Origin: an uncultured bacterium
Lineage (GTDB): Bacteria > Cyanobacteriota > Vampirovibrionia > Gastranaerophilales > Gastranaerophilaceae
Length of the DNA stretch: 63,095 bases
Assembly: GCA_949284715.1 (NCBI GenBank)
Contig: CASDWH010000019.1
Coordinates: forward strand, 1 to 63,095
Reading direction: 5' to 3'
Of the stretch, positions 6,313 through 26,590 are shown one piece after another. The position numbers were made by a program, and so were the translations under genes. Below the pieces are notes generated by a model. The model had not been told where the DNA came from and ran no database searches. It saw nothing but the letters and a program-made list of their open reading frames with translations. The stretch's first letter is position 1, and each line of letters starts with the position of its first letter.

Positions 6313-6403
6313 GGAGGAGTGCCAGAGCGGTTTATCGGAGCGGTCTTGAAAACCGTCGTACGTGACGAGCGTACCGTGGGTTCGAATCCCACCTCCTCCT
6401 CCA
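6313..6403 (+). tRNA. tRNA-Ser(UGA)
   Basis: A complete class II tRNA. The acceptor stem GGAGGAG pairs with CTCCTCC (6393-6399). The anticodon loop CTTGAAA (6345-6351) gives UGA. A long variable arm closes with GTACG/CGTAC, and the T arm is GTGGG-TTCGAAT-CCCAC. The 3' CCA is encoded (6401-6403). The discriminator is T6400, whereas bacterial serine tRNAs usually have G73. From 6377 on, the gene's 3' part is repeated at 15449-15472 and serves as attachment site of the island. Confidence 0.95.
6377..6400 (+). other. attL: left attachment repeat in tRNA-Ser
   Basis: A 24-base segment covering the T-loop to discriminator of tRNA-Ser, identical to 15449-15472. Tyrosine integrases often use tRNA 3' ends as attB and restore the gene on integration, which is what is seen: the tRNA upstream is intact. 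Confidence 0.85.
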
Positions 6404-6540: not shown

Positions 6541-7485
6541 CTAATATCTCAGAGGTATTTCTGATATTTCTACTTTTGTTTGGTGGTATTCATTTTGATG
6601 TAATAAACTTTCAACTCCAGCCTTATAATAATCTTGTTTAATAGTTGGAGATGTTGTTATTACAGAAACTGCATCTTTATCAAAATCAAGTTCTATATAT
6701 GGAATTATCAAGCTATTTTGAATTCTATTTTTAATCTGAAACGCCCTATTTTGTTTCTGCAAAATATCAGTAAATTCGGTTATAACAAACCGATATTCAT
6801 TTTCATTTTTGAAAGCCTCTTTTTTAAAAAACAAAGAAAAAACATGTATTAAGCCCCACAAAGACTTAAGAACCTTTTCTTTATCCTCCTCTGTCGTCAT
6901 TTTTTGATAAAGTAAGTTATACTCCTCAAGCGCTTCTTTAAGATAACTTTCTTGTTTACATTTTTCACAGATTGTTTTTCCATAAATAAAATGGTGCATA
7001 ACTTTAAGTTGAGATTTAACTTTCTCAACTAATTTATCAACCTTAAAACCAATATTATATCCGGCCATACTACCGGTTTTAGTGTAATAATTCCATAAAG
7101 ATAACTCATCTTGTTCTGTTGAAAAACAAGCGACAAAAATAGAATCCCTATTTACATAGTCAAATAAATTTGAAGGTAGTTGAGTTCTTTTTTGTATTTT
7201 TTCTTCAATAGAATCTTTGAATGCTTGACATATTCTATCATTATTTTGGGTTAATATATCTGTTAATAAATCAAAAGTATAAGTTATTTCTGATTCATCA
7301 TTCATATAAGTTATTTCGGATAGCCATAGTGTATGAGTAGTTAAAATTCCTAATATACCTTCCGGCGATGTATAATGATATATAATTGAAGAATTTATAG
7401 TTGTTTTGTCATTTGCAAATTTACCTTGTAATCTTCTTCTAACCTCGATTATTTCATCAATTGGATCTTTTTTATTTTTTGACAT
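6541..7485 (-). CDS. DUF2971 family protein (island copy)
   Basis: A 314-residue protein of the DUF2971 type. Conserved blocks shared with the copy at 26654-27571 are YHYTSPEGILGIL, YMNDESEITYTF, CFSTEQDELSLWNYY, AGYNIGF, FFKKEAFKNENEYRF, IPYIEL and the C-terminal IPLRY. The HYT...IL start and the late Glu in NEYR recall ADP-ribosyltransferase-fold proteins, but that is an inference from motif shape only. Cys-x2-Cys residues occur mid-protein (KTICEKCKQE). It is the leftmost gene of the element and the XRE gene lies 43 bases upstream on the same strand; the two may be co-expressed. Function unknown; defence or toxin cargo is possible. Confidence 0.7.
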   Translation of the reverse strand: MSKNKKDPIDEIIEVRRRLQGKFANDKTTINSSIIYHYTSPEGILGILTTHTLWLSEITYMNDESEITYTFDLLTDILTQNNDRICQAFKDSIEEKIQKRTQLPSNLFDYVNRDSIFVACFSTEQDELSLWNYYTKTGSMAGYNIGFKVDKLVEKVKSQLKVMHHFIYGKTICEKCKQESYLKEALEEYNLLYQKMTTEEDKEKVLKSLWGLIHVFSLFFKKEAFKNENEYRFVITEFTDILQKQNRAFQIKNRIQNSLIIPYIELDFDKDAVSVITTSPTIKQDYYKAGVESLLHQNEYHQTKVEISEIPLRY

Positions 7486-8005: not shown

Positions 8006-8722
8006 ATGAAAAATCAATATGCAGGTGATGTTGGTGATTATACAAAATTAGGTATTTTGAGAGGGCTTGAAAATGCAGGTTTCAGCATAGGTTTAAACTG
8101 GTATCTAACACCTGATGAGCCGGAACACTCAAAAACTTTTACAGACGGCAAGCACACAAAGTTTTTAGAATGTGATTGTGATACTCCGGACATTGATTTG
8201 TATTGCGCCCTACAGAAAATCGGATTGAGTAATAACAGAACAGTTGCAAGGCTTGAAAGAGCAAAACTCTTTGAAAATACTTTATTTTGGAACAAAATGC
8301 TTGAGGGCAAGAGCCGCGATAAATGGCATTTAGAAGCCTTAAAGAAATTAGGTAAGCAAGATGTAATATTCTTAGATCCTGACAATGGACTTGAAGTTAA
8401 AAGCACAAATCCTTATTCAAAAAACGGTAACAAATATACAACGTATAAAGAAGCAGCGGATTATTATGTACAAGGGGCAACGGTAATTATTTATAATCAT
8501 AGAGATAGAAAGCCTGAAAATGAATATTTAAAAAGATTTTATCGGTTTATAGATATGGAAGAAACAAAAAATGCTAAAATGTTTTATTTAAGGGCTTCAA
8601 GGTATTCTGTGAGAGATTATTTGTTTTTAGTACAAGAAAGGCATTTTTCTGACTTAGAAACGGCTATTGATAATTTCTTAGCTACTGAATGGTGTCGTTA
8701 CCTCAAAAAGTATCTTCTTTGA
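8006..8722 (+). CDS. conserved protein of unknown function (KNQYxGDxxDYxK family)
   Basis: A 238-residue soluble protein starting after AAAGGCGGG. The N-terminus MKNQYAGDVGDYTKLGILR matches a family I know only as hypothetical proteins, often in accessory regions. Further landmarks are the LDPDNGLEVKS block (DPDNG at 124-128), YKEAADYY, and YNHRDRKPE around 163-170. The acidic DPDNG loop and the following aromatic/His motif could form an active site, perhaps of a Rossmann-like enzyme, but this is speculation. It diverges from the XRE regulator and its 3' end lies three bases from the convergent integrase. Likely island cargo. Confidence 0.7.
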   Translation: MKNQYAGDVGDYTKLGILRGLENAGFSIGLNWYLTPDEPEHSKTFTDGKHTKFLECDCDTPDIDLYCALQKIGLSNNRTVARLERAKLFENTLFWNKMLEGKSRDKWHLEALKKLGKQDVIFLDPDNGLEVKSTNPYSKNGNKYTTYKEAADYYVQGATVIIYNHRDRKPENEYLKRFYRFIDMEETKNAKMFYLRASRYSVRDYLFLVQERHFSDLETAIDNFLATEWCRYLKKYLL

Positions 8723-8724
8723 CT

Positions 8725-10107
8725 TCAAAGACATCTTCTCTTTAACATTGAATACAGGTTGTCCATTGTAGTTGCGGCTTGAGTTTCTTTGCTCTGAATT
8801 GCATGAGAGTAAGTATTTAATGTTACGGTTTTATCCGCATGCCCAAGTCTTTTGCTTAATGTTACCGCGTCTACTCCGTTTGCAATCAGCAAACTTGCGT
8901 TTGTATGCCGGAGTTCATGAAAAGTAATCTTAGGCAGATTATGCCGTTTTAAAAAGTTCATAAACCACTTGTAAGGTCTTGTCGGGTGTAAATCCTGTCC
9001 GTCATCGTGTTTAAATAAGTATTCTCCATTTTTCCAAGCAGAGCCGAGTTTTAATTTATCTTCCGCCTGTTTCTGTTTGTACTGTTTCAGTATTGTAACC
9101 ATTTGAGAGGATAGTGTAACTGTTCGGATTCCGTTTTCTGTTTTAGGTTGTTTTTCCATTACTCCAAATGTGCTTACATATTGCCGCTGTTTGTTGATTG
9201 TCAAAACACCAGTTTCAAAATTCACATCTTCCCATTTTAGTCCGCATAATTCACCGGAACGTAAACCTACATCTATCGCAAGGCAGATTATTGTTTTATA
9301 TGTCATTGGCTCATTTTCAAGTTCTTTAAAGAGGCTTGCTGTTTGTTCGTCATCATAATATTTTACCTGCTTTTTAGAAATCTTCCCTAAATCAACTTTT
9401 TTAGCAGGGTTATAGTTAATTAAATTCCATCTTTCCGCAAGTGTAAATATTGAACTAATGTCTGTATGGTGGTGCTTAATCGTTTTATCAGATAATGGAT
9501 TATCGTTTGTTCTTTTAAACATCTTTTTAAAATTCAAATCAAAAGCCCCGCAAATTTTTTGAGCAGTTTTAAGGTTTGTTTTCTCCCCATTTTTTAGGCG
9601 CAGGCATGTTTTGTTTGTAATTCCGGTTATTTGAACAAGTTCTCCGGTCTTATATTTAGACAAAAACTCCGACATATTTTTTGTCGGAGTATAAAAATCT
9701 TCAAGTCTTGAACCGTTATTTCTTAATTTGTTATAAAATTCTTCTAAGTGATATGTTTGAATTTTACTTAATTTATGATGCCCCAATTCCGGAATAATTC
9801 TATCTTTTAATCTTGCCAGACAGGGTTTCAGTGATGCCGGCGCGTATTTTATTTTTGCGTGTTTTTCAATCCATATTTCTGTGAACTCTGCGAAAGTTAT
9901 TTTTTCACCATCAAGATTATTTTTGTTCAGAACCTCATTTTCAAATAGAATTTTTTGCCGCAGAAGTTCATTTTGTTTTTGCCTTTCGGTTAGATTAGGC
10001 GGAAGTTTGATTGTCTTATATTTTCTAATCTTTTTGCCGCCTACATCATAACCGCAGGAAACGACTATTCTATACGATCCGTCTTTTCGTTTTTCAACAC
10101 TTGCCAT
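8725..10107 (-). CDS. int: tyrosine recombinase (integrase) with embedded HTH
   Basis: A 460-residue phage-type integrase. In order: an N-terminal arm-binding beta domain (about 1-60), a core-binding SAM-like domain (70-240) and the catalytic domain (250-450). The catalytic residues are R283 (GLRSGEL), H397/R400 (HELRH), H423 (LGH) and the Y433 nucleophile (NTYSH). The core-binding domain is interrupted by about 50 residues (144-196: MSEFLSKYKTGELVQITG through FDLNFKKMF) that read as an XRE-type helix-turn-helix. It catalyses insertion into and excision from tRNA-Ser. The start overlaps the end of the upstream repressor gene by 14 bases, so both are co-expressed. Confidence 0.95.
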   Translation of the reverse strand: MASVEKRKDGSYRIVVSCGYDVGGKKIRKYKTIKLPPNLTERQKQNELLRQKILFENEVLNKNNLDGEKITFAEFTEIWIEKHAKIKYAPASLKPCLARLKDRIIPELGHHKLSKIQTYHLEEFYNKLRNNGSRLEDFYTPTKNMSEFLSKYKTGELVQITGITNKTCLRLKNGEKTNLKTAQKICGAFDLNFKKMFKRTNDNPLSDKTIKHHHTDISSIFTLAERWNLINYNPAKKVDLGKISKKQVKYYDDEQTASLFKELENEPMTYKTIICLAIDVGLRSGELCGLKWEDVNFETGVLTINKQRQYVSTFGVMEKQPKTENGIRTVTLSSQMVTILKQYKQKQAEDKLKLGSAWKNGEYLFKHDDGQDLHPTRPYKWFMNFLKRHNLPKITFHELRHTNASLLIANGVDAVTLSKRLGHADKTVTLNTYSHAIQSKETQAATTMDNLYSMLKRRCL

Positions 10108-10717
10108 TATTTTTGTCCTCTAAAGTTTTGTCAATACCTTTTTTAAGATTTGCTAGTTTTTCTATAAGATTTACCAAAAAATATTGTGCCAAAGTTGTGT
10201 TATAAAACATCCCAAGCATATCTTTATTGTCTGGTGCGCATGCATACAATAATACTCTATTATCTTTGTTACCTTCAGTAATTTCCACATCATGAAATAA
10301 GTAATTATATAGATTTTCTAGCAAATCATCTTCAATATTTTCAATAAGATAATTAAGCATTTTTATTTTGTCATTCTTTCTATTTGTTGAATTTTTCTTA
10401 ATATAACTTTTTAGAATTTCGCATGCGTTTTCATCTATACCTAATTCTTTTAGTATCATTTCATTACTTGGTTTTGTTGCTTCTGCATACCCCAGCACAT
10501 AATCTGCTGATAATCCAAATTTTTCTTTTATAGAATAAATAATATTTACATCAGGAATACTTTGTCCACTTGCATATTGACTAATAGTTTGACGAGCGAC
10601 TCCTATAATTTTTCCTAATTCTTCTTGAGTTAGGTTATTTTCTTTCATTATTTTTCTAATTGCTTTTGCAAATGCTTGTTGTTCCGTTTGATATGTCAGC
10701 TCTTTTTTACGTGGCAT
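10094..10717 (-). CDS. CI-like XRE repressor of the element
   Basis: A 207-residue regulator. I take ATG 10717 (MPRKKELTYQ) as start because GGAGATATAAC precedes it; a longer frame begins at 10774 without a ribosome site. The helix-turn-helix covers residues 14-75 (NNLTQEELGKIIGVARQTISQYASG), and the rest is helical and acidic. There is no visible LexA/CI-type Ser-Lys autoprotease motif, so induction is probably by another route, for example binding of an inducer protein as in satellite Stl repressors. It is followed by int and diverges from the excisionase-like gene. Confidence 0.85.
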   Translation of the reverse strand: MPRKKELTYQTEQQAFAKAIRKIMKENNLTQEELGKIIGVARQTISQYASGQSIPDVNIIYSIKEKFGLSADYVLGYAEATKPSNEMILKELGIDENACEILKSYIKKNSTNRKNDKIKMLNYLIENIEDDLLENLYNYLFHDVEITEGNKDNRVLLYACAPDNKDMLGMFYNTTLAQYFLVNLIEKLANLKKGIDKTLEDKNNGKC

Positions 10718-10823
10718 GTTATATCTCCTTAACTTTGTTATTAAATGCAGAATTTTTGATTTGCATATTGACAAAATTTTAATTCATGTCATGCTTATAT
10801 AACATTATTTTATCACATGTTAA

Positions 10824-10861: not shown

Positions 10862-11119
10862 ATGGCAGATAACAACAATTTACTGGGGATTAAACAAAAA
10901 CAAATGTTTACAATTCAAGAAGCAGTTAAACATTTCGGCATTTCAGAATACTCAATCCGAATGGGGATCAGGCAAGGGATTTATCCGGCTATCAAAATCG
11001 GCGGCAAGCGGGGCAAATACCTTATTGATGCAGAATTGTTTGAATCAACTTTAAGAATTGAAGCAATCAGAAACATGAAAGAATACGGAAAAGGAGAACA
11101 AAATCATGACAAAAATTAG
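10862..11119 (+). CDS. excisionase / MerR-like HTH protein
   Basis: An 85-residue protein after an AAAGGAGG ribosome site. The core MFTIQEAVKHFGISEYSIR, then RQGIYPAIKIGGKRGKYLIDAELFE, is the winged-helix layout of excisionase-family DNA-binding proteins. It probably directs integrase toward excision or activates the replication genes. It overlaps the next gene by 14 bases and heads the xis-helicase-primase-cargo operon. Confidence 0.8.
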   Translation: MADNNNLLGIKQKQMFTIQEAVKHFGISEYSIRMGIRQGIYPAIKIGGKRGKYLIDAELFESTLRIEAIRNMKEYGKGEQNHDKN

Positions 11120-12533
11120 ATTACCCAAAATTATGAATGAAACATTAGATGTATTTTCAAATCGTTATGTGAATACATCAAAAACAGCTATTACATCAAT
11201 ACAGATTCTGAAAGTTGCGCAAATGATAACCTCAAAAGGTGTGCGGTATAAGAATCTTGATACTATAGATATCCCTAATTATTATGCAATCGTATTGCTT
11301 CCGTCAGGCGGCGGTAAAGATAGAATATCCAACGAGTATGACAATTTAATTTTTAAGCCGTTCAGAGATTGGTTCAAAGAAAAGGCAGAAGCGTATTACC
11401 TTGAGAAAAAACAAAAAATTCGAGAAGAATATACAGACAAAAACAATAAACCGATAAAACAACTTATAAAAGAAGCTGAAAAATCTATTCGCTATCCTGT
11501 CTTGGAAGTCGTGGACGGAACACAAGAGGGGCTTTTTGAAGATGCAAAAACTCTAAAAGAAGCAGAATTTGGGGCGATTACTTATAAGATGTCGGAATTT
11601 GGCATGTTTTTAGATTCCGCACAAAACACCGAAAAACAGTTCTTAGGCTGTCTATATGATGGTTATGACGGTAAAATTCCCTCAAAATCAATTAAGCATG
11701 GTAAGCGGGAAGCAAGTATTGAGGACATGCCTGTAAATTGTCTATTTCTTTCAGATCCAACCCTGTTTAGCAGCGGGAATCTCAAAAATATGTTCAACCT
11801 GCTTATGCAAACCGGCTTAGGTAGAAGGTGCGTTATATCTTTCCAGAAACAACAGGATAAAATTATTGAATATGACAAAGAAGTCGCTTTTCGAAAAGAA
11901 CAACAATTTTATAAAGATTGCAAAAACCTTTCTGAACGGTTTATTGAAATCTTCAACAAAATACCAATAAATGCGGTTTATAAAATAACCGAAGAAGCCC
12001 TAAAAGATGTTCATTATCTTTATAAAGTAAGAATGGAAGAACTTGAAAATGCAACAGAAGATGTCTTGCGTAAAAAAGAAATTCAAAGCCGGCAACACAA
12101 AGCCCTAAAAATTGCATGCCTGTATGCTTGCTTAAATCACCCGACAGAGTTGGTTGTTAATGCGGAAGATATGCAGCAGGCTATTGATACCGTTGAATTT
12201 ATATCACAAGACTTTGAAACATTCCTTAGATACAAACCTAAATCTGATGATGCTTATGATAGATTATGGGATTTTTTCTTAAACAATTTAGGTAAAGGGT
12301 TTAAAAGAACTGATCTCATATACAAGCACTTTAATAATTTTGGAGTATCACGTGATAAATTCAAAGACCGCTTTGATGATTATATTGACTCTATACGGGA
12401 AATGGCACTTGAAAAAGGTTACTTTTTGGAAGTTACGTCAATTAATCGCAATTCCGGCACAAAATACAGGCTTATTAAGCTTGAAGAACAGGAATTAGGC
12501 GAAGATACCCGAAGACTTGAAGATTTAATTTAA
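11106..12533 (+). CDS. P-loop replication protein (DUF3987-like)
   Basis: A 475-residue protein resembling DUF3987-type helicase-like ATPases of phages and mobile elements. A modified P-loop, LLPSGGGKDR (K71), lies near the N-terminus where family members carry SGxGK. There is a Walker-B-like hydrophobic stretch (VNCLFLSDP), and the C-terminal part (from about 390) looks like a winged-helix DNA-binding region (WDFFLNNLGKGFKRTDL...). It probably unwinds or melts the element's origin together with the primase downstream. The family call is from motif pattern; a defence ATPase is less likely given the neighbours. Confidence 0.65.
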   Translation: MTKIRLPKIMNETLDVFSNRYVNTSKTAITSIQILKVAQMITSKGVRYKNLDTIDIPNYYAIVLLPSGGGKDRISNEYDNLIFKPFRDWFKEKAEAYYLEKKQKIREEYTDKNNKPIKQLIKEAEKSIRYPVLEVVDGTQEGLFEDAKTLKEAEFGAITYKMSEFGMFLDSAQNTEKQFLGCLYDGYDGKIPSKSIKHGKREASIEDMPVNCLFLSDPTLFSSGNLKNMFNLLMQTGLGRRCVISFQKQQDKIIEYDKEVAFRKEQQFYKDCKNLSERFIEIFNKIPINAVYKITEEALKDVHYLYKVRMEELENATEDVLRKKEIQSRQHKALKIACLYACLNHPTELVVNAEDMQQAIDTVEFISQDFETFLRYKPKSDDAYDRLWDFFLNNLGKGFKRTDLIYKHFNNFGVSRDKFKDRFDDYIDSIREMALEKGYFLEVTSINRNSGTKYRLIKLEEQELGEDTRRLEDLI

Positions 12534-12668: not shown

Positions 12669-13553
12669 ATGAGATTAAATATAGGACAAGTTTTGTATTA
12701 TTTGACGCCATATTTCAATAAAAAGCAAGGTGATGAATTTATATTTCAATGTCCCTATTGTATGGACACCGGCAGAGATAATTTAAAATTTAATGAGCGC
12801 AAAGGGATACTGCACTGCTTTGCAAATCCGGAACATTCAAAGATGATTTACAAGAAAATTATGAGCAACCCTAAGCTAAGAAGATTAAGCCAACCAACGC
12901 AATATGAATATCAAGATGATAGAAACTCTCTATCCTATGAAGAACAAATCGGGTATATGCTTGGTTTTGATACCTGTAATGACTATTTATTGGAAAATGA
13001 TGAGTTGTTAAATTTGCTCTATCAAAAGCGCGGAATTAATAAAGAAACTGTTTACAATATGAATATAGGATTTGAACCTCATCTTAACAAGTGGGTTTTT
13101 CCGAATTACGGTTATAGAACTGCTGAAGGCATGGAGATATTGGGTTATGAACTCCGTCCGAAAGATTTTTCAAAGAAAGGTTTGTGTCGTTCCAAAGGCA
13201 CACCCAATAATTTTTCTGCAGTAAATCGTTATACTAAAGACACAGAGATTTTGTGTATAGTAGAGGGCTTTTTAGATGCTTACGCTCTATGGCAACACCT
13301 GAATGAACATGGACAGTCAAGTAAATATCATATTGTAACTCCAACAAACGGAATAAATTCTCTGCCAAAATATATTGATCGTATAGAGTTTGACAAATAC
13401 AAAAAGCACTATCTTTTTGTAGATAATGATGAAGTTTCAAGACCAATAGCAGACAAAATCTGCGCCCAATATCCGTTTGAAAACATCCGCCTTACCTGCG
13501 GCTGCAAAGATTTTAACGAGCATTATTTGAGATGTATACGCATTGATAAATAA
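12669..13553 (+). CDS. phage-type DNA primase (Zn finger + TOPRIM)
   Basis: A 294-residue DnaG-like primase. An N-terminal zinc finger uses C28, C31, C50 and H56 (CPYCMDTG ... LHCFANPEH). A linker domain is followed by a TOPRIM core: IVEGFLDAY with E199, VDNDE with D252 and D254, and a final CGCKDFNEHY. It synthesises RNA primers on the element's DNA. There is no helicase domain; the neighbouring P-loop protein may supply it. A clear GGAGG site precedes the ATG. The gene ends 38 bases before the GHKL gene's start. Confidence 0.88.
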   Translation: MRLNIGQVLYYLTPYFNKKQGDEFIFQCPYCMDTGRDNLKFNERKGILHCFANPEHSKMIYKKIMSNPKLRRLSQPTQYEYQDDRNSLSYEEQIGYMLGFDTCNDYLLENDELLNLLYQKRGINKETVYNMNIGFEPHLNKWVFPNYGYRTAEGMEILGYELRPKDFSKKGLCRSKGTPNNFSAVNRYTKDTEILCIVEGFLDAYALWQHLNEHGQSSKYHIVTPTNGINSLPKYIDRIEFDKYKKHYLFVDNDEVSRPIADKICAQYPFENIRLTCGCKDFNEHYLRCIRIDK

Positions 13554-13591
13554 ATTTGTTTGATATAAATTTTATTAAAAAGGAGTTTTAC

Positions 13592-15313
13592 ATGATTGCA
13601 CAAAATCAAATATCAACAAATCAATTTGTCATTACACCCAAAGTAGTTGAGTCACAAGAATTTATTGAAATAGCAACGGATTTTTCTAATCGTTTAGATA
13701 TTGTGAGAGAAGCAATAAGTAATGCTTATGATGCAAAAGCTACTAATATAAAAATTCTTTTTGATGTTATTGATGACTATGGAACACCTGTTTTAAAAAT
13801 TACATTAAAAGATAATGGTACTGGCATGGATAAAGAAGGGTTACAATCTTTTTTTGATTTAGGGAATTCTTTACGAAGGAATTCTCCTGAATATATTGGT
13901 GAAAAGGGACATGGTACAAAGATATATTTAAATAGTAAAAAAATTATTGTAACCACAAGTAAAAATGGAGTTACCTATAAAGCTATCCTTGATGAACCTT
14001 TTAAAAATTTATATAATCATCAAATTCCTCAAGTGCAAGTAACGGAGTTTCACAATGATGAACTTAAACAAGGCACAATAATTGAAATATTTGGCTATAA
14101 TAATAATCAAAGGCAGCAGTTTACACATGATAGATTGAAAGATTACATTATGTGGTTTACAAAGCACGGTGCTGTTGATAATATTTTTTATCCTGACAAA
14201 TATAAAAATGTAAAAGTTTACCTAAAAGGGCTTGAAGCTGATAAAGAAGAATTGTTGCAATGGGGGCATGTATTTCCAAACGAATCAAAGAACACAACGG
14301 AATTATTTGATGAATACTTAGCAGAAGCACCTAATTACTATTCCAAAATAATCAAAAAACAAGGACACCTAAAAAATTCCCCCGAAGTAAAATATGAAGC
14401 TGTTTTTTCAATAGAAGGAACGAAAGTTAAGTATGATTATAATAAAATGATTCGAAGAAAGGGATATATAGCACCAGAAGGAGCATATACAATTCAAGAA
14501 AGATATGGCTTATGGTTATGTAAAGATTTTATTCCAATCCAAAGAAAAAATGAATGGATAACTTCTAAAGGCTCAGAATATACAAAATTTCACGCATTTT
14601 TTAATTGCCAAGCTTTGAAATTAACAGCCAATCGAGGCTCTGTTGAAAATACAAGAAATGAAATAATGAAAGATATTGAAAATGAAGTGAAAAATATATA
14701 TGAACAAATTTTATCGAGTGAAGATTGGGCGAATTTGGCATATCTTGAAGATGAAGCAGTAGGTTACAATACTGTAGCAAGAGAACAGCAGAACTATGCA
14801 ACACGAATAAGGAATTTAAATAAAGCTAATATCGCAGAATATAAAAATTTACATCTTGTTGAACCACAAAAAGAAGCAGGCGTTTATGCCTTATGTTTAC
14901 AATTACTTGCAATTCAACCTGATTTATTTCCGTTTCAAATACTTGATTATGATACTCATGAAGGTATTGATGTAATAGCCAAAGCAGAAAAAACAATACC
15001 TATACAGAATAGCAAATTATATTATGTAGAATTTAAAAATCATCTAATAAATAACTTTAATCATTCATTTGAAAATTTATTTAGTATAGTATGTTGGGAT
15101 ACAAAAATCAAACATGATGAAATTGTTTCTGATATAGCAGGTATAGAAAGAAAATTAGAAATTATACCGCCCAAAAATGATAACGATTATACAAGATACT
15201 TTTTAAATGACCCAAGAAAAGCACATAAAATTGAGATTTTTGTCCTAAAACAATATCTTAAGCAAAAATTAGGTATTGAATTCAAGCCTAGAACCTCAGA
15301 AGACATTTACTAA
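13592..15313 (+). CDS. GHKL ATPase fused to PD-(D/E)xK-like nuclease
   Basis: A 573-residue protein; ATG 13592 is chosen over an upstream frame start (13556) because AAAAAGGAG precedes it. The N-terminal domain is a GHKL (Hsp90/MutL/MORC-like) ATPase: N-box REAISNAYDA with E40 and N44, DNGTGM (74-79), and the lid GEKGHGTK (103-110). A middle S5-like and helical region follows. The C-terminal domain has GIDV (D460) and, after a beta hairpin, YVEFK (E480, K482), the spacing of a PD-(D/E)xK nuclease. This recalls prokaryotic MORC-like ATPases associated with restriction. It is the last gene of the element's plus-strand operon, the usual place for cargo. Defence against phages or plasmids is an inference. 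Confidence 0.75.
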   Translation: MIAQNQISTNQFVITPKVVESQEFIEIATDFSNRLDIVREAISNAYDAKATNIKILFDVIDDYGTPVLKITLKDNGTGMDKEGLQSFFDLGNSLRRNSPEYIGEKGHGTKIYLNSKKIIVTTSKNGVTYKAILDEPFKNLYNHQIPQVQVTEFHNDELKQGTIIEIFGYNNNQRQQFTHDRLKDYIMWFTKHGAVDNIFYPDKYKNVKVYLKGLEADKEELLQWGHVFPNESKNTTELFDEYLAEAPNYYSKIIKKQGHLKNSPEVKYEAVFSIEGTKVKYDYNKMIRRKGYIAPEGAYTIQERYGLWLCKDFIPIQRKNEWITSKGSEYTKFHAFFNCQALKLTANRGSVENTRNEIMKDIENEVKNIYEQILSSEDWANLAYLEDEAVGYNTVAREQQNYATRIRNLNKANIAEYKNLHLVEPQKEAGVYALCLQLLAIQPDLFPFQILDYDTHEGIDVIAKAEKTIPIQNSKLYYVEFKNHLINNFNHSFENLFSIVCWDTKIKHDEIVSDIAGIERKLEIIPPKNDNDYTRYFLNDPRKAHKIEIFVLKQYLKQKLGIEFKPRTSEDIY

Positions 15314-15448: not shown

Positions 15449-15472
15449 TGGGTTCGAATCCCACCTCCTCCT
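15449..15472 (+). other. attR: right attachment repeat
   Basis: A 24-base copy of the tRNA-Ser 3' end (identical to 6377-6400), not preceded by any other tRNA sequence. It marks the right edge of the element. Confidence 0.85.
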
Positions 15473-15803: not shown

Positions 15804-15884
15804 TTAATCTCCAATAGGTAAGCCCAAACTTTCAAATACTAAACCTGTTGCAGTATTTCCACCGCCAATACCGTCTTTAATCAT
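15804..15884 (-). pseudogene. fragment after dam, possible restriction endonuclease start
   Basis: A 26-codon reading frame whose ATG overlaps the Dam stop (TAATG). The peptide MIKDGIGGGNTATGLVFES reads like the beginning of a longer enzyme and then stops. Coupling to a DNA methylase suggests the partner endonuclease of a restriction-modification pair, truncated here. Family unknown. Confidence 0.4.
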
Positions 15885-16360
15885 TAATAATTCCTCACTA
15901 AAACTTCAGTTATTTTCCCTCTGCCGTTACCGTTAGCATTTATTGCACGGGAGGCAAAAACTTTTTTAATTTCATAATTTGAGTACAATTCATTTACAAG
16001 TTTTGTATCTGAGTTAGAAAGCATAAACATTACACCTTTATTGTTCAGTTCATCACAAACATCTCTTAACTTAAACTGCATATCAAGGCCAAAACCGTCT
16101 TTGGTGTACGAAGTAAAACTTGAAGTTTCATTCAGCGGAACATAAGGCGGATCAAAGTAAACAAAGTCGCCTTTTTGAACTTTGTTTAAAATTTCTGAGA
16201 AATCTGTACAACAAATTTCAGTATTTTTCAATAATTTAGAACAATTAATTAAGTTTTCAGCATCGACTATTCTTGGATTTTTGTAATTCCCGAACGGTAC
16301 ATTAAACTGCCCTTGTGAATTTACCCGATATATTCCGTTGAAACAGGTTCTGTTTAAACA
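15884..16360 (-). pseudogene. dam: DNA adenine methylase remnant (5' truncated)
   Basis: The C-terminal part of a D12-class N6-adenine methyltransferase. LNRTCFNGIYRVNSQGQFN, NVPFGNYKNP, the catalytic motif IV DPPY (YFDPPYVPL) and MLSNSD are all readable in one frame to the TAA at 15884. The frame stays open to a TGA at 16442-16444, but upstream of about 16360 no Dam-like sequence or ATG is seen, so the S-adenosylmethionine-binding N-terminus is lost. It lies within the second element's scar and probably protected DNA in an R-M system. Confidence 0.75.
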
Positions 16361-16479: not shown

Positions 16480-16565
16480 AAAATTTATCTTGTAATATTC
16501 TTCTAATTTCTATTATTTCATCAATTGGCTCTTTTTATATTGTGGCATAAATCCCAGTTAGTATA
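16480..16565 (-). pseudogene. 5' remnant of a DUF2971 gene
   Basis: On the minus strand the sequence encodes EPIDEIIEIRRILQDKF, nearly identical to DPIDEIIEVRRRLQGKF at the start of the island DUF2971 gene (6541-7485). The ATG is now in another frame, and the similarity stops after about 18 codons. Similarity also continues upstream of the start codon (ATAAATC... leader). It is a decayed relic of a second copy at the same hotspot. Confidence 0.7.
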
Positions 16566-19381: not shown

Positions 19382-22300
19382 TTGAGCGTAATTGAGTTTA
19401 GCGGTTTAGTAACTGGTTTAGACACAAATTCGTGGGTGAGCGCACTCACGGCGCTTAAGAATGCCAAAGTTCAGGAGCTGGAAGCGGAAAAAGCTGCCGT
19501 TGTGGAGTTAAAAGATGTAGTATCAGGGATTAAAACATTCTTTTCATCATTCAGGAGTTCGATAGAAAAGCTTACGGATGCCAGATTAGGTGTTGATGCA
19601 ATGGATATTTTTGTCCAAAACCTTGCTAATTCTTCTGACCCATCCAAGGTTACTGCAACAGCGACGCACAGTGCTTCAAGAGATACGTATGAAGTTGGTG
19701 TAACCCAGCTTGCAAGTGCAACCAAGGTTAATACTGCTATTAGAAAAACATTTACAATGACGTATACTGCCGACATGGATACAAAGCTTTCTGTATTAGG
19801 GGTAAAAGAGGGGTATGTATCGGTTAACGAGAAGGAAATCAAAATTGAGAACAGCGATACTATTGAGTCTTTAATCACAAAACTCGCTGATATAGGAGTT
19901 ACTGCCACGTATGATGAAGGGATAGGGCGGTTTACAATAGAAACCGACGTATTTGAGGTTGATGAAGGGACAACTAATGTATTTGGCGCACTCGGACTGG
20001 AGTTTAAAGATATTACCGGCGTTTCAACCGGAGAGCTGCGTGTTGAAGGATATGTTACTATTAAACCTACAACTTTACTATCAGATATTAATGCTGTAGG
20101 CGGTAATATCCGGATTAATAATGTTGTTGAAAATCTTACTTTTAATGCGGGAGATACAATACAGGATTTCCTTGATTATATGAACAATAAGTATGGTGCA
20201 GGTACTGCAATAATGGATTCTGATGGATTTATAACCATACAGGGGCTTGATATTGAAGAAATCAGGGGCGGTTCTAATATTATAACGGCTCTCGGGTTAA
20301 CGGAAACGGTTGATACAGTAACGTCGTCAACTGACAGGCTTTATTATGATAATACAGAGTTTGCTGATGCAAACACTGCACTTGGAAATTTAAATACAAC
20401 CTTCTCAAATTACAGACTTGTTTTGGGAAGCGGTTCTGCTGCACAAACTATTAACCTGTCATCTGCATCAACTCTTGGTGATGTTATTGCACAGATAGAG
20501 GCTTATGCTGCTAATAACGGAATGAATGCTGATGTAGAGTTAACAGATCAAGGGGCAATCATAATTACAGGAGATATTGATAAACTCTATATAAGCGGAG
20601 GTATAGCAGACGGACTCGGATTAGAAACCGAAACAGTAAACGGAACAACGCTAACCGGCGCTCATATGGAATACACTATAACTTATACTGCCAAAACCAG
20701 TACGACATTCGGTGATTTAGGAATATCAGGTTCTAATTTAACCTATGATGTACTTAATGAAAGAGGAGAAGCTTTAGCATCAAATTTAAATGTCGCTTCA
20801 ACAACAACTATTGAAGCGTGGTTTGATTCAATGAAGCAATATGGTATTACTGCTTCAATATCAGAAGAGGGTGTTATATCAGCGGAAGGCGGTATAATTT
20901 CCGGTGCGTTAGCAGCAGCTCTGGGCTTGTCATCTGTTGTATCAGGCGAAGTCATTTCAGGAACTTCTGCCGAGTCAAACGCTCTGGCCGGAACAACTAC
21001 GGTGCAGGCTACATTAACTTCTTCACTCGCATCACTCGGAATTAACTCCAGCCAAACCCTTACAATAAATGTTAACGGTGCTAATACAACAAGAAACTTT
21101 ACAGGCTCTTCCACACTGCAAGATGTTGTAAATGCAATTACATCTGCCGGCGGAACCGTAACACTTCAAGACGGAAAATTGGACATATCAGGTGTGGATA
21201 AACTTTCCGGTTCATTAGTATCTTCACTAAAACTTGATGAACATACAATTGAAGGTACTTCTATGTATAATACAAACCTTTCATATACTATGGCATCAAT
21301 AGCAACGGAAGCTACACAATTTTCAGCGCTGGGCATTACAAATCTTAGTTTTGCAGTATATGATGAAGAAGGAAACCTGCAAGGTAATGTCAATCTTGGT
21401 TCGTCAGCTACTATAGGTGACTTTATTACCAGACTGGAAAATTACGGAATGACTGCAAGCATAGATGAAAACGGGGTTGTATCATTAGATGGCGGATATA
21501 TTACAGGAAATCTTGCTAATAGTATGGGAATCAGCCACAGTGTTGATCATACGTATGTATCAAAAACCACAATAGAGTCAAATCCGCTGCACGGTACTAT
21601 AACTACAACAGCATCAATGACCTCGTCGCTGGCCGACTTTGGTATTACTTCTACCCAGTACTTAACAATCCGCGATATGGGAACAACAACCGTTCGTTCT
21701 TTTACATCAGCATCAACGCTTCAGGATATATCAGATGCTATTACTTCAATGGGCGGTGTGTTTACATTTGAGGATAACCGGATTTATATCACCGGGGTTG
21801 ATAATATTTCCGGCTCATTGCTTACAGCATTAGGTTTAACTGCATCACAGACAGGTAATGCTACATCTATATATTCATCAGGAGTAAAATATACACTTGG
21901 CGAAATAGCAACCGAGGATTCCAGATTTGCTGATTTTGGAATTTCTCCGAGCGGTAAAACATATAATGTTTATGCTCAGGATGGTACATTGCTCGGTTCA
22001 AACCTTTCATTAGGCGCTGATGCAAAAGTCGGTGACTTATTAACATCATTAACTTCCAGAGGTTTAGATGCCTATGTTGATTCAACAGGCCGTATAAGTA
22101 TAACAAACGGTTATATTACAGGCTCTATGGCGACAGCCTTAGGATTTTCATCGAGCAATTACCAGACAAATGTTGTAAGTGTAACACAGGTTTCCGGACA
22201 AATTGAAGCTCAATTGCCGGTAACAGCAACATTAGATACAACTTTTGCTCAATTAGGCTACAATGGTACATATTACCTGACAATTAATAATGACGGTACA

Positions 22301-25300
22301 ACAAGTGTACATACATTCAATTCATCTTCAACTATTGCCTCAATTTCGTATGCAGTAGCGTCGTCTGGCGGTAAATTTGAATTACTTGACGGTGCTATAT
22401 CTATTTCCGGAGTACAAATATCGGGTTCGCTTGCAAGCAGCCTCGGCATAGATCACAAAGCCGGCTCAGTACAACAATATACAACAACAAGTACCAGTAT
22501 AACTTCTCGTACCATAATTGTTGGGGCGGCGGTATCTATTGAACAGGTTATAACAACGATAACAACGACATTAACATCAACCGATACATTTGTTTATCGT
22601 TCAGATATAAAATCATATGAAATTACAACCTCTAATTTTGACCCGTCTGCAACAAAATTATCGCAAATGGGGGTTACAAACGGGACAGTAAGCTTATATA
22701 ACGGCAGTACGAATACGACGACTGCGATATATACGGTGACGGCAGATTCGACGCTCGGAGCCTTTATGACGGCTCTGGAAATTAACGGTGTAACTGCAAA
22801 ATTCGTTGACGGTAAACTAATATTGACTGCGGATGAAGATTTACAGGTTCAAGGCGGAAGTTCTAATTTGTTTAGTCATTTTGGATTCACCAATACTATT
22901 GTTTACGAAACATTAACCCAAAACTCAACATCTAATATATTAAATAACCTTACAACACACAATTTAACTTCTACAACCGCACTCAGCCTTGTAACCGGCG
23001 GAACTGCTGATAGAGAACTTGTATTAAACATTAATGGTGAAACAGTTACAAGAGTTTTTGGCGCTTCTGATACTATTCAAGATGTAATAGATTTTATTGA
23101 GTCAAAAGGTATTACGGCATCGCTGAATAACGGAACTTTTAGTGCCTCATCAGCGTATCAGGAATTTTCTATTTCTGGAAGTCTGGCAGCAGTAATACTC
23201 GGAGAAAATCCTTCGTTTACAACCTCTTCGCGCCCTACAGCGTGGAGCGGAACAGTTTCTGATAAAGAAGAAACTACTGCAATTAACGGGAATACAAAGC
23301 TTGTCCACCTCGGTGTTACAACCGGTGAATTAAAAATATATGATAACGGTACCTGGACATCTACAGCTATAAGTATAAATGAAAATACAACTATTAATGA
23401 TTTTATAGCTTCATTATCAACTTATGGATTTACAGCTTCTTTAACAGGAGGAAAACTCCATATTACAGCAGACTCAAATATGTATCTTGTGGATGAAACA
23501 TCAAATCTTGCAAGTAAATTAGGGCTTACACATTCTTATGAATATCAAACAGTTTATCAATCTTCAACTTCCTCAGCTCTTGCCTATACAACAGTAAGAA
23601 CTATCGGAACATCTACAACACTTGCTGATATGGGATTTGAAAGCGGTTCTGATTTAAGGCTTGTTATTGACGGAACTGTACATTCAATCGGGTTTACCGG
23701 CAGCGAAACGGTACAGGATGTACTTGATGCACTCGGTGTATATGGAATTGACGCTGAAATTACAAATGGTACATTTAAAGCTTCCTCAACAGAGCATATC
23801 TTTAGTATTACAGGGGAACTAGGCACAAAAATTGCAAGCTCTTCTCCTGTAACGTCTACAATTACTACAGTTACAGGCTATTCAACTACTCTGCCGCAAT
23901 CGGTAAATCCTGTAACAATAAATGAGGATGCCAAACTTGTTGATTTAGGTGTTACAGAGGGCGGTATTAAAATTTATGATAACGGTACCTGGATTAATAC
24001 AGTTATCAATATTAATCAGAATACAACAATCGGCGACTTCCTTGCGGCACTCCAAGGATATGGATTCACTGCAAGTCTTGATGGTAACAAAATTAAAATA
24101 AGCAGCGATTCTGATAAATATATTGCTGATGAATCATCAAACCTTGTATCAAAACTCGGGTTAACTAACAGGACACAAACAAAAGTTAATATCTACGACC
24201 AAACCAATTCTAATACTTTAACAATGGTTAGAACTTATGAACTTTCTGATACAACTACATTAAAGGATTTAGGATTTGATTCGGGTACTTCGCTGCGGCT
24301 TGAAATAGACGGTGTATTCTATAATGTCGGTTTCACATCAGATGATACAATAGGTGAAGTAGTTGATTCTTTAAATACATTCGGTATTAATGCTCAGTTG
24401 CAGAACGGAGTTCTGACGGCGAACACAGAGGACAAAACTTTCTATCTTATCGGCTCTCTTGCTGATATTCTTACCGGCGGCGCTCCAACTTACATAACTA
24501 CAGAAAAAGTTACATATCATGAAACAGAAGCTCAAAGTACAGGTATTACATACGTTGCAGATGCGTCTTCCAAGCTGTCTGATTTAGGCGTAGATACTGG
24601 ATATATCAATGTGCTTGAGGCCGGAGAGATTGTTTCTACTATCGCAATACGTGAAGATACCAAGGTTTCACAGCTTTTCAGCGCGCTGGCTGCCCATGGT
24701 ATCGCAGGCAGCATTTCTACTGACGGCAGAATTACAATTCAAAGTGTCGGGGATGTTACACTGCTTGACGGTACTTCTAATCTTGTAAGCCATCTCGGTC
24801 TTAATGATAATATCTATTCAAATACTTATTATGGTACAACTCTGGTGCTGGAAGAAGATGTTAATGTTGCAACAGAAGACACTCTGGTTTCATACTATGA
24901 TAATGCAGGGAAGAAAGCTGAAGGGTCTGTATATTTTGCAATTTCAGATCAGGATGGGAATGTGACTAATACAGTTGTTAATATTGATGCTGATGACACT
25001 ATTGGTGACTTGATTGAAAAATTGGAAGCCGTAGGCCTTTCTGCCTCATTTGAAAACGGGGTTATTTCTTATCATAACGGTATGGGAAGTGCTGAAATTA
25101 CTGGCGGTACATCTTCATTTGCAGACACTCTCGGGTTTAGTGATACTGTACTTGAACAGTGGATGCAAAATGATGTGGAAATCCAATACGAACAGGATGA
25201 AATAAGGTATTTATCTGTTGTGAACTATGCAAGCAATTCTACCACCCTTGAAACACTCGGTGTAACAGACGGTGAGTTTTCAATCGGTATTAATGGCTCT

Positions 25301-26590
25301 ATCATTAATGTTAATGTTTCGACAACAGATACCATTGCAAATCTTATGTCAAGGATTTCAAGCGCTTCTAATGGTTCGGTAACGGCCTCTTTAACATCTG
25401 ACGGCAAATTCATGCTTGAAGCGGCAGAGGGTGTAGAATTAATTATTGGAACCTCTACTGATACAACTAACCTTGTTACTATCTTTAACCTTTCCCAAAA
25501 CGGCTCAAACGTAATTACCGGTAATACTTCTCTATACAAAGCCTCTTCTACATCGAAACTCATAGACAGCGGACTTTTCCGTGAAGGTGATGTAACAGAA
25601 GGAACATTTACTATAGGTAATGCAGAGTTTACTATTACAAGCGAAACTACTATTGCGTCGCTTATTAACGATATTAACCATTCAGAAGCAGCAAATGCGA
25701 ACGCCTACTGGGATAATATTAACGGTAAAATGATTCTTACATCGACAACTTTAGGTTCATCGTACGTTAATATTCAGGGCGGAACAAGCAACTTTACAGA
25801 AATCTTCGGATTAACCGTAAATGACAGAGGTGAAGAAAGACTTACAACATATAATCAGGATTTAGGCGATAATGCAATATTAACAATTAACGGTACAAGA
25901 ATTGTTTCTACTTCCAATACAATCACGAGTGATATTTCAAGAATAGAAGGTCTTACTGTTAACCTCAAAGGTGTTACTGCCGGGGATTACGTTACCATAA
26001 CGGTCGAGCGGGATACACAGTCAATTATAGATGCCGTTCAGGAAACTCTTGACGGATACAATACTCTTATTGCAGAACTTAATACAGTGCTTGCAATCGG
26101 CGGAGATTTACATAATGATACAGCATTGAAAAGTATTAAAAATCAAATTACCAATATGTTCACTTCCCGCGGTACAAACGGTGTTAAGTTATTCAGAAAC
26201 CTTTCTGCAATCGGTATTTCTACTGAGGATGCAAGTTCCGCAATGCCCGGCGATATCTATTCTCTTCATCTTGATGTTGAAAAGTTTGAAAACGCTCTTA
26301 ATACCTCTGAAGATGAAGTTAAGCTTTTGCTGGTCGGTACGGATGATAATCCCGGTATCTTAACAAAAGTGGAAAATATCATAGAACAAATGCTTACTAC
26401 AACAGGTTATTTCCAATCTAAAAATAAAGCCTTAGATCGTGAAATTGACAGGTTTGATGTAAAAATAGAACGCGCCCAAAGAAGAGCCGATGCGTATCGG
26501 GTTACACTGGAAAACAAATTCCAAAGTATGGAAATGCTCTATTCTAACATGCAAAGTTCTTATCAAAACGTATTTGCCGGAGGTCTTTAA
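19382..26590 (+). CDS. fliD: giant flagellar hook-associated protein 2 (filament cap)
   Basis: A 2402-residue FliD; common FliD proteins are about 450-700. The N-terminus (IEFSGLVTGLDTNSWV, residues 1-110) is the coiled D0/D1 start, and the last 240 residues (from about DNAILTINGTRI, with SIIDAVQETLDGYNTLIAEL and the final coiled coil) are the C-terminal D0/D1. Between them are about 19 degenerate repeats of roughly 105 residues. Each has a TxxDFIxxLxxYGITA motif, a DGxIxI strand and a xxLGL end, like flagellin hook IN motifs. The cap promotes flagellin polymerisation at the filament tip; the insert would form large outward domains, perhaps adhesive. The start is TTG after TTGGAG. Confidence 0.9.
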   Translation: MSVIEFSGLVTGLDTNSWVSALTALKNAKVQELEAEKAAVVELKDVVSGIKTFFSSFRSSIEKLTDARLGVDAMDIFVQNLANSSDPSKVTATATHSASRDTYEVGVTQLASATKVNTAIRKTFTMTYTADMDTKLSVLGVKEGYVSVNEKEIKIENSDTIESLITKLADIGVTATYDEGIGRFTIETDVFEVDEGTTNVFGALGLEFKDITGVSTGELRVEGYVTIKPTTLLSDINAVGGNIRINNVVENLTFNAGDTIQDFLDYMNNKYGAGTAIMDSDGFITIQGLDIEEIRGGSNIITALGLTETVDTVTSSTDRLYYDNTEFADANTALGNLNTTFSNYRLVLGSGSAAQTINLSSASTLGDVIAQIEAYAANNGMNADVELTDQGAIIITGDIDKLYISGGIADGLGLETETVNGTTLTGAHMEYTITYTAKTSTTFGDLGISGSNLTYDVLNERGEALASNLNVASTTTIEAWFDSMKQYGITASISEEGVISAEGGIISGALAAALGLSSVVSGEVISGTSAESNALAGTTTVQATLTSSLASLGINSSQTLTINVNGANTTRNFTGSSTLQDVVNAITSAGGTVTLQDGKLDISGVDKLSGSLVSSLKLDEHTIEGTSMYNTNLSYTMASIATEATQFSALGITNLSFAVYDEEGNLQGNVNLGSSATIGDFITRLENYGMTASIDENGVVSLDGGYITGNLANSMGISHSVDHTYVSKTTIESNPLHGTITTTASMTSSLADFGITSTQYLTIRDMGTTTVRSFTSASTLQDISDAITSMGGVFTFEDNRIYITGVDNISGSLLTALGLTASQTGNATSIYSSGVKYTLGEIATEDSRFADFGISPSGKTYNVYAQDGTLLGSNLSLGADAKVGDLLTSLTSRGLDAYVDSTGRISITNGYITGSMATALGFSSSNYQTNVVSVTQVSGQIEAQLPVTATLDTTFAQLGYNGTYYLTINNDGTTSVHTFNSSSTIASISYAVASSGGKFELLDGAISISGVQISGSLASSLGIDHKAGSVQQYTTTSTSITSRTIIVGAAVSIEQVITTITTTLTSTDTFVYRSDIKSYEITTSNFDPSATKLSQMGVTNGTVSLYNGSTNTTTAIYTVTADSTLGAFMTALEINGVTAKFVDGKLILTADEDLQVQGGSSNLFSHFGFTNTIVYETLTQNSTSNILNNLTTHNLTSTTALSLVTGGTADRELVLNINGETVTRVFGASDTIQDVIDFIESKGITASLNNGTFSASSAYQEFSISGSLAAVILGENPSFTTSSRPTAWSGTVSDKEETTAINGNTKLVHLGVTTGELKIYDNGTWTSTAISINENTTINDFIASLSTYGFTASLTGGKLHITADSNMYLVDETSNLASKLGLTHSYEYQTVYQSSTSSALAYTTVRTIGTSTTLADMGFESGSDLRLVIDGTVHSIGFTGSETVQDVLDALGVYGIDAEITNGTFKASSTEHIFSITGELGTKIASSSPVTSTITTVTGYSTTLPQSVNPVTINEDAKLVDLGVTEGGIKIYDNGTWINTVININQNTTIGDFLAALQGYGFTASLDGNKIKISSDSDKYIADESSNLVSKLGLTNRTQTKVNIYDQTNSNTLTMVRTYELSDTTTLKDLGFDSGTSLRLEIDGVFYNVGFTSDDTIGEVVDSLNTFGINAQLQNGVLTANTEDKTFYLIGSLADILTGGAPTYITTEKVTYHETEAQSTGITYVADASSKLSDLGVDTGYINVLEAGEIVSTIAIREDTKVSQLFSALAAHGIAGSISTDGRITIQSVGDVTLLDGTSNLVSHLGLNDNIYSNTYYGTTLVLEEDVNVATEDTLVSYYDNAGKKAEGSVYFAISDQDGNVTNTVVNIDADDTIGDLIEKLEAVGLSASFENGVISYHNGMGSAEITGGTSSFADTLGFSDTVLEQWMQNDVEIQYEQDEIRYLSVVNYASNSTTLETLGVTDGEFSIGINGSIINVNVSTTDTIANLMSRISSASNGSVTASLTSDGKFMLEAAEGVELIIGTSTDTTNLVTIFNLSQNGSNVITGNTSLYKASSTSKLIDSGLFREGDVTEGTFTIGNAEFTITSETTIASLINDINHSEAANANAYWDNINGKMILTSTTLGSSYVNIQGGTSNFTEIFGLTVNDRGEERLTTYNQDLGDNAILTINGTRIVSTSNTITSDISRIEGLTVNLKGVTAGDYVTITVERDTQSIIDAVQETLDGYNTLIAELNTVLAIGGDLHNDTALKSIKNQITNMFTSRGTNGVKLFRNLSAIGISTEDASSAMPGDIYSLHLDVEKFENALNTSEDEVKLLLVGTDDNPGILTKVENIIEQMLTTTGYFQSKNKALDREIDRFDVKIERAQRRADAYRVTLENKFQSMEMLYSNMQSSYQNVFAGGL

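Follow-up and report, generated by a model that had tools for sequence, protein, structure and literature searches.

The window analysed here, a stretch of 63,095 nucleotides, carries on its forward strand an open reading frame running from an ATG at position 13592 to a stop codon at 15313, which encodes a protein of 573 amino acids (P0001). An AAGGAG Shine-Dalgarno sequence is located at 13580-13585, 6 nt before the ATG, and the frame is confirmed as a genuine gene, present in a single copy in its own genome. The residue positions given in a previous sequence-only reading of this DNA agree with the translation: intact GHKL motifs (E40/N44, DNGTGM at residues 74-79 and GEKGHGTK at 103-110) are found in the same protein as a C-terminal GIDV (458-461) and YVEFK (478-482). 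The parts of the gene and the features surrounding it are listed in Table 1.

Table 1. Features of the P0001 gene and of the integrative element that carries it, in window coordinates.
Feature	Position	Strand	Evidence
tRNA-Ser(TGA), integration target	6313..6403	+	ARAGORN
attL, 24-bp direct repeat inside the tRNA-Ser 3' end	6377..6400	+	
DUF2971 gene, second cargo at the opposite end of the element	6541..7485	-	Pfam 9.2e-8; PADLOC PDC-S31 8.8e-6
Tyrosine integrase of the element	8725..10107	-	Pfam Phage_integrase 6.8e-29
Phage-type HTH repressor	10094..10774	-	
Small HTH, excisionase-like	10862..11119	+	Weak HTH_17 and xis-type PHROG matches
DUF3987 primase/replication protein	11106..12533	+	Pfam DUF3987 7e-10; phrog_2135 5e-32
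DnaG-like Toprim primase	12669..13553	+	phrog_239 3.6e-22
GHKL ATPase-nuclease fusion gene (P0001, 573 aa)	13592..15313	+	Open frame, translation, Shine-Dalgarno
GHKL ATPase module, residues ~20-225	13649..14266	+	Pfam HATPase_c_3 1e-14; fold matches
GHKL motif codons: E40/N44; DNGTGM; GEKGHGTK	13709-13723; 13811-13828; 13898-13921	+	
Middle/transducer region, residues 226-401	14267..14794	+	Conservation
C-terminal PD-(D/E)xK-like nuclease domain, residues 402-573	14795..15310	+	AlphaFold2, VIA-align, invariant residues
Core codons: E428; D460; E480-x-K482; N490-H491	14873-14875; 14969-14971; 15029-15037; 15059-15064	+	
attR, exact 24-bp copy	15449..15472	+	

The P0001 gene occupies the end of an element of 9.1 kb lying between the two 24-bp repeats, which also contains an HTH gene and one unnamed gene in addition to those of Table 1. 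No virion or packaging genes were found within these 9.1 kb, and the G+C content falls from 37-38% in the flanks to 31.9% over the element, with 29.0% for the P0001 gene alone. Phage satellites are delimited by a size of 7-20 kb, att repeats, an integrase, a regulator, replication genes and the absence of virion genes (PMC13376191), and in size and gene content the element corresponds to this description. The exact repeats, the integrase, the repressor, the xis-like HTH and the two primase-type genes thus bear out the earlier view of P0001 as cargo of a satellite-like element. At the left end, a forward-strand frame (8006-8722) encodes a protein of 238 aa (MKNQYAGD...FLDPDNG), possibly a second cargo, that matches nothing in Pfam, PADLOC, PHROGs or NCBIfam. 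A 56-bp piece of the DUF2971 gene reappears, 89% identical, past attR at 16481-16536 and is likely the remnant of an older integration. Just beyond attR, the reverse strand carries what is left of a Dam-type adenine methyltransferase (15884-16231), probably decayed cargo; a tie between P0001 and this truncated enzyme was rejected, as it lies outside attR and only its C-terminal fragment is left.

The tRNA-Ser site was compared across three genomes (G001, G002 and G003; loci L053-L056 and L067-L069). In G003, from the same genus, the tRNA-Ser runs straight into sequence 81% identical to the right flank of the window, and this genome therefore displays the site without the window's element. In G002, the same tRNA harbors another element, whose integrase is 52.6% identical and whose cargo is a type IIG restriction enzyme of 982 aa (PADLOC, 473 bits), while in G001 the same HTH (94%) adjoins a different left-end gene. 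Considering this type IIG cargo, together with a Mokosh-like helicase located ~6 kb further along from the tRNA-Ser site in G003, the tRNA-Ser(TGA) site appears to be an integration hotspot gathering defence genes in this genus.

The N-terminal part of P0001 is matched by the Pfam HATPase_c_3 profile over residues 38-150 (1e-14, 55.2 bits; cut-off, 25 bits), and its GHKL motifs are invariant across every family member having an N-terminus. Combining the E/N of the N-box, DxGxG and GxKGxG/T with a significant HMM match, P0001 can be placed on sequence grounds in the GHKL ATPase superfamily. The fold matches of the N-terminal model are Hsp90/TRAP1, MORC2/3/4, GyrB and MutL, whereas by sequence MutL and MORC2 are the nearest to the module. 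The middle region (226-401) has conserved residues, basic ones among them, with K311, D312 and L-TANR (R348) invariant. In a full-length AlphaFold model built from seven sequences, the N- and C-terminal parts are good and the middle is poor, and its low pLDDT means that the fold of the middle region is only inferred.

In the C-terminal domain, E428, D460, E480, K482, N490, H491 and F493 are identical in the 12 members compared, whose sources are an archaeon, bacteria of several phyla and two viral contigs. The E-D-ExK core is conserved beyond chance, and it presents in all 12 the residue pattern of the PD-(D/E)xK superfamily, E-D-(D/E)xK, to which the domain would putatively belong. Between P0001 and its homologue L007, differing sites of the C-domain are distributed as 50/46/87 over codon positions 1/2/3, indicating that the domain is under protein-level selection. 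Modelled alone with AlphaFold2 (residues 402-573), the domain reaches a pLDDT of 88.4 and a pTM of 0.84 and shows a helix, a strand bearing the aspartate and a strand bearing the ExK, that is, the restriction-endonuclease-like layout whose absence would have counted against the earlier reading. EndoMS, AspBHI, Bax1, MspJI, SPARDA and McrC have the PD-(D/E)xK fold. The best eight rows of a VIA-align 2 comparison with the C-domain are all PD-(D/E)xK nucleases, each match being weak (Z of 6.2 for EndoMS, 3.7 for AspBHI, 3.6 for Bax1 and 3.5 for MspJI, with SPARDA and McrC also present); the EndoMS match covers 90 residues at 3.1 A, and unrelated folds also reach such Z values. A Foldseek search against the PDB gave no significant match for the domain, with nothing below E 0.18, and none of the libraries searched names the C-terminal third of P0001. 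A marginal PDB match to Lmo0135 (0.0037) covers the last third only and was taken as chance. Taken together, the individually weak VIA matches and the motif make a PD-(D/E)xK fold likely for the modelled domain. The fusion proposed earlier, of a GHKL ATPase to a PD-(D/E)xK-like domain, is thus upheld by the HATPase_c_3 match and the invariant core. The C-domain was found in no other architecture among 398 Pseudomonadota genomes, in a search run without a positive control.

Homologues of P0001 are infrequent. None was found in 58 relatives of the host, the seed is the only copy in two other phyla searched, and a homologue is carried by 4 of 398 genomes of one Bacillota phylum. Full-length relatives with 50-59% identity are present on a Caballeronia plasmid, on two viral contigs and in metagenome-assembled genomes of Methanofastidiosia, Acidobacteria, Zixibacteria and Lachnospiraceae, while more distant ones (35-37%) are found in Bacillota; no close relatives were found in the phage collection. 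As such identities link bacteria, an archaeon and viral contigs yet the 58 host relatives do not have the gene, the family is rare, patchy and widely spread by horizontal transfer among bacteria, archaea and phages. Two homologues are broken: in Sporolactobacillus, a transposase-like insert splits the gene, and in genome G369 its N- and C-terminal halves (L064 and L065) are 1.8 Mb apart. In the latter genome, the C-half has a transposase-like gene beside it, and the N-half an Mrr-like one.

The genomic context of the homologues is diverse. Neighbours include SIR2 with HerA, an OLD/GajA-like ATPase, PDDEXK_4 defence candidates of PADLOC and a dCTP-deaminase-like gene; one homologue is on a mobilizable plasmid, and another, 57% identical (L026:9962-11695), sits in the tail module of a phage contig with a tail gene on either side, a moron-like placement, while three (L008, L009 and L063) stand alone amid ordinary chromosomal genes. 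These settings are not confined to the housekeeping contexts that would have spoken against a defence role, and, as counts taken without a background control, they are no more than suggestive of defence. No conserved partner gene was found in the neighbourhoods, which makes a single-gene system plausible, as the sequence-only reading had supposed.

Two haloarchaeal homologues with 26-29% identity (L005:8976-11578 and L006:8947-11563) differ from the other members. In both, substitutions have removed all seven conserved residues of the nuclease domain and left the GHKL motifs complete, and this joint loss fits a single active site that can be dispensed with. Both genes are located directly downstream of a TGT/DpdA-like gene, which recalls the Dpd clusters of 7-deazaguanine DNA modification, and the L006 cluster also contains upstream DpdJ-like (6e-50), DpdK-like and DpdC-like genes. 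In contrast to Dpd clusters, the element of the window has no Dpd-like genes, and it is the haloarchaeal proteins that are without the nuclease residues.

The fusion of a GHKL ATPase with a PD-(D/E)xK domain is a known architecture, that of paraMORC3, BbrUII/HgiDII and VcSduA (Shedu I-D). VcSduA, from VSP-II of V. cholerae, is a single-gene anti-phage system composed of GHKL and DUF4263, whose activity is abolished by E27A in the ATPase and by K557A in the nuclease and which was assigned by its authors to Shedu type I-D (PMC12137116). The paraMORC3 proteins present GHKL, an S5-type domain and a C-terminal RE-fold nuclease with E-D-ExK (PMC2292703); they are often laterally transferred and a subset is standalone (Iyer, Abhiman & Aravind 2008, PMC2292703). 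The previous remark that P0001 could not be matched to a named defence system must consequently be revised for the architecture, already described as paraMORC3 (PMC2292703) and proven anti-phage in VcSduA (PMC12137116), although by sequence P0001 fails the family tests of VcSduA and BbrUII/HgiDII. P0001 is, like VcSduA, one gene on a mobile island with an N-terminal GHKL and a C-terminal PD-(D/E)xK-like domain; it shares with BbrUII/HgiDII (NF050001; PADLOC REase_II PDLC03419) a GHKL N-terminus (similarity 2.9e-8) joined to a nuclease; and, compared by published description, its family and paraMORC3 are alike in domain order, E-D-ExK, lateral transfer and standalone occurrence.

P0001 could then be a divergent member of the VcSduA/BbrUII-HgiDII (Shedu I-D, paraMORC3) family, with a common ancestor and the same nuclease, as the shared domain order and ATP-gating logic, the match of the GHKL profiles at 98% probability and the D...ExK core of both would allow. 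We consider this unlikely, because P0001 reaches only 32.7 bits with NF050001, over residues 31-172, against a curated cut-off of 550 bits and the 797 and 830 bits of two BbrUII/HgiDII proteins (L043 and L045), and membership in that family was rejected by this score. Similarly, the Pfam SduA_C profile has no match in seven members (P0001 and six relatives), and the C-domain profile does not align with those of BbrUII and Shedu (probability 0.1-0.2%), although the method does align BbrUII with Shedu, the positive control, at 66% (E 5e-5); on these two sequence-profile results we reject Shedu/VcSduA membership. The D-to-E spacing is ~20 residues, compared with 14 in the VcSduA/BbrUII-HgiDII group, and in the tree of the GHKL module the P0001 family and the BbrUII-type proteins form separate clades (100/100). 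The solved Shedu chains 8ps4 and 8ti9 are absent from the VIA matches of the C-domain, which excludes nothing. A cytosine methyltransferase adjoins six of the seven plasmid members of BbrUII/HgiDII inspected, in contrast to the P0001 family: no C5-cytosine methyltransferase was found among the element genes or annotated beside the plasmid homologues, and the frames surrounding the remaining homologues, several of them on short contigs, showed none either. MutL and the eukaryotic and prokaryotic MORC ATPases share the fold of the GHKL module and the logic of an ATP-gated dimer, and differ from P0001 in their C-terminus; the MORC-specific GhXhhpXXRhl motif of the S5 domain has no match in 14 sequences, and the MORC family proper was rejected on its absence. 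P0001 would work like VcSduA, but the scores, the C-domain profiles, the spacing and the tree suggest that it belongs to a separate, rare and apparently unnamed family, sister to the VcSduA/BbrUII-HgiDII group. A function for the element itself, with P0001 as a nuclease or topoisomerase-like factor acting with the Toprim/primase in replication, excision or transfer, is quite unlikely: 38 bp separate the gene from the primase gene, with which it is probably co-transcribed, and a Toprim gene next to one for a GHKL protein is reminiscent of type II topoisomerases, but the Toprim protein is DnaG-like, homologues recur without a Toprim gene (plasmids, the phage tail module, the solitary chromosomal copies), and the sister element at the same tRNA has none. 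A Toprim and GHKL topoisomerase pair was rejected, since the protein encoded upstream resembles a primase and homologues do not keep the pairing. Finally, the sequence proximity of the GHKL module to MutL and MORC2, and EndoMS as the best fold match of the C-domain, could evoke a MutL/EndoMS-type ATPase-nuclease of DNA repair or mismatch processing acquired by mobile elements; this seems highly improbable given a rare and patchy distribution unlike that of repair genes (0 of 58 host relatives, 4 of 398 in the Bacillota phylum) and copies broken in two of the few hosts.

Our preferred interpretation, which we regard as fairly probable, is that P0001 is a nuclease gated by ATP and acting as a single-gene system against phages or plasmids, the defence cargo of a satellite-like element, and that what it destroys is most likely invading phage or plasmid DNA; we infer for it the anti-phage role for which it had been put forward as a candidate. 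The response would start when an infecting phage or an entering plasmid presents a feature of foreign DNA; the GHKL domains would bind ATP and dimerise into a DNA clamp, as in MutL, MORC and Hsp90, and closure of the clamp would pair two PD-(D/E)xK domains, licensing cleavage of the invading DNA. As there is no methyltransferase partner, discrimination between self and foreign cannot depend on a neighbouring modification gene and probably rests on DNA structure, modification or a phage product. If P0001 is active, it would be a defence gene that the PADLOC and NCBIfam libraries searched do not contain, and the combination of a GHKL clamp with a restriction-type nuclease, as a minimal immune system of one gene, would have arisen in several nuclease lineages rather than one.

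More tentatively, and with doubts slightly outweighing our confidence, P0001 may represent a second family, distinct from Shedu, of immune nucleases gated by a GHKL module, with its own GHKL lineage and a non-Shedu PD-(D/E)xK domain, whose clamp would later have been reused, free of its nuclease, with a DpdA-like transglycosylase in the DNA-modification clusters of haloarchaea. In the nuclease-dead haloarchaeal relatives beside Dpd-like genes, the ATPase is naturally uncoupled from the nuclease, so that the DNA feature sensed by the GHKL clamp becomes directly testable.

Further along the window, the forward strand encodes a repetitive protein of 2402 aa (19382-26590) whose ends resemble the flagellar cap protein FliD and which is far longer than usual.
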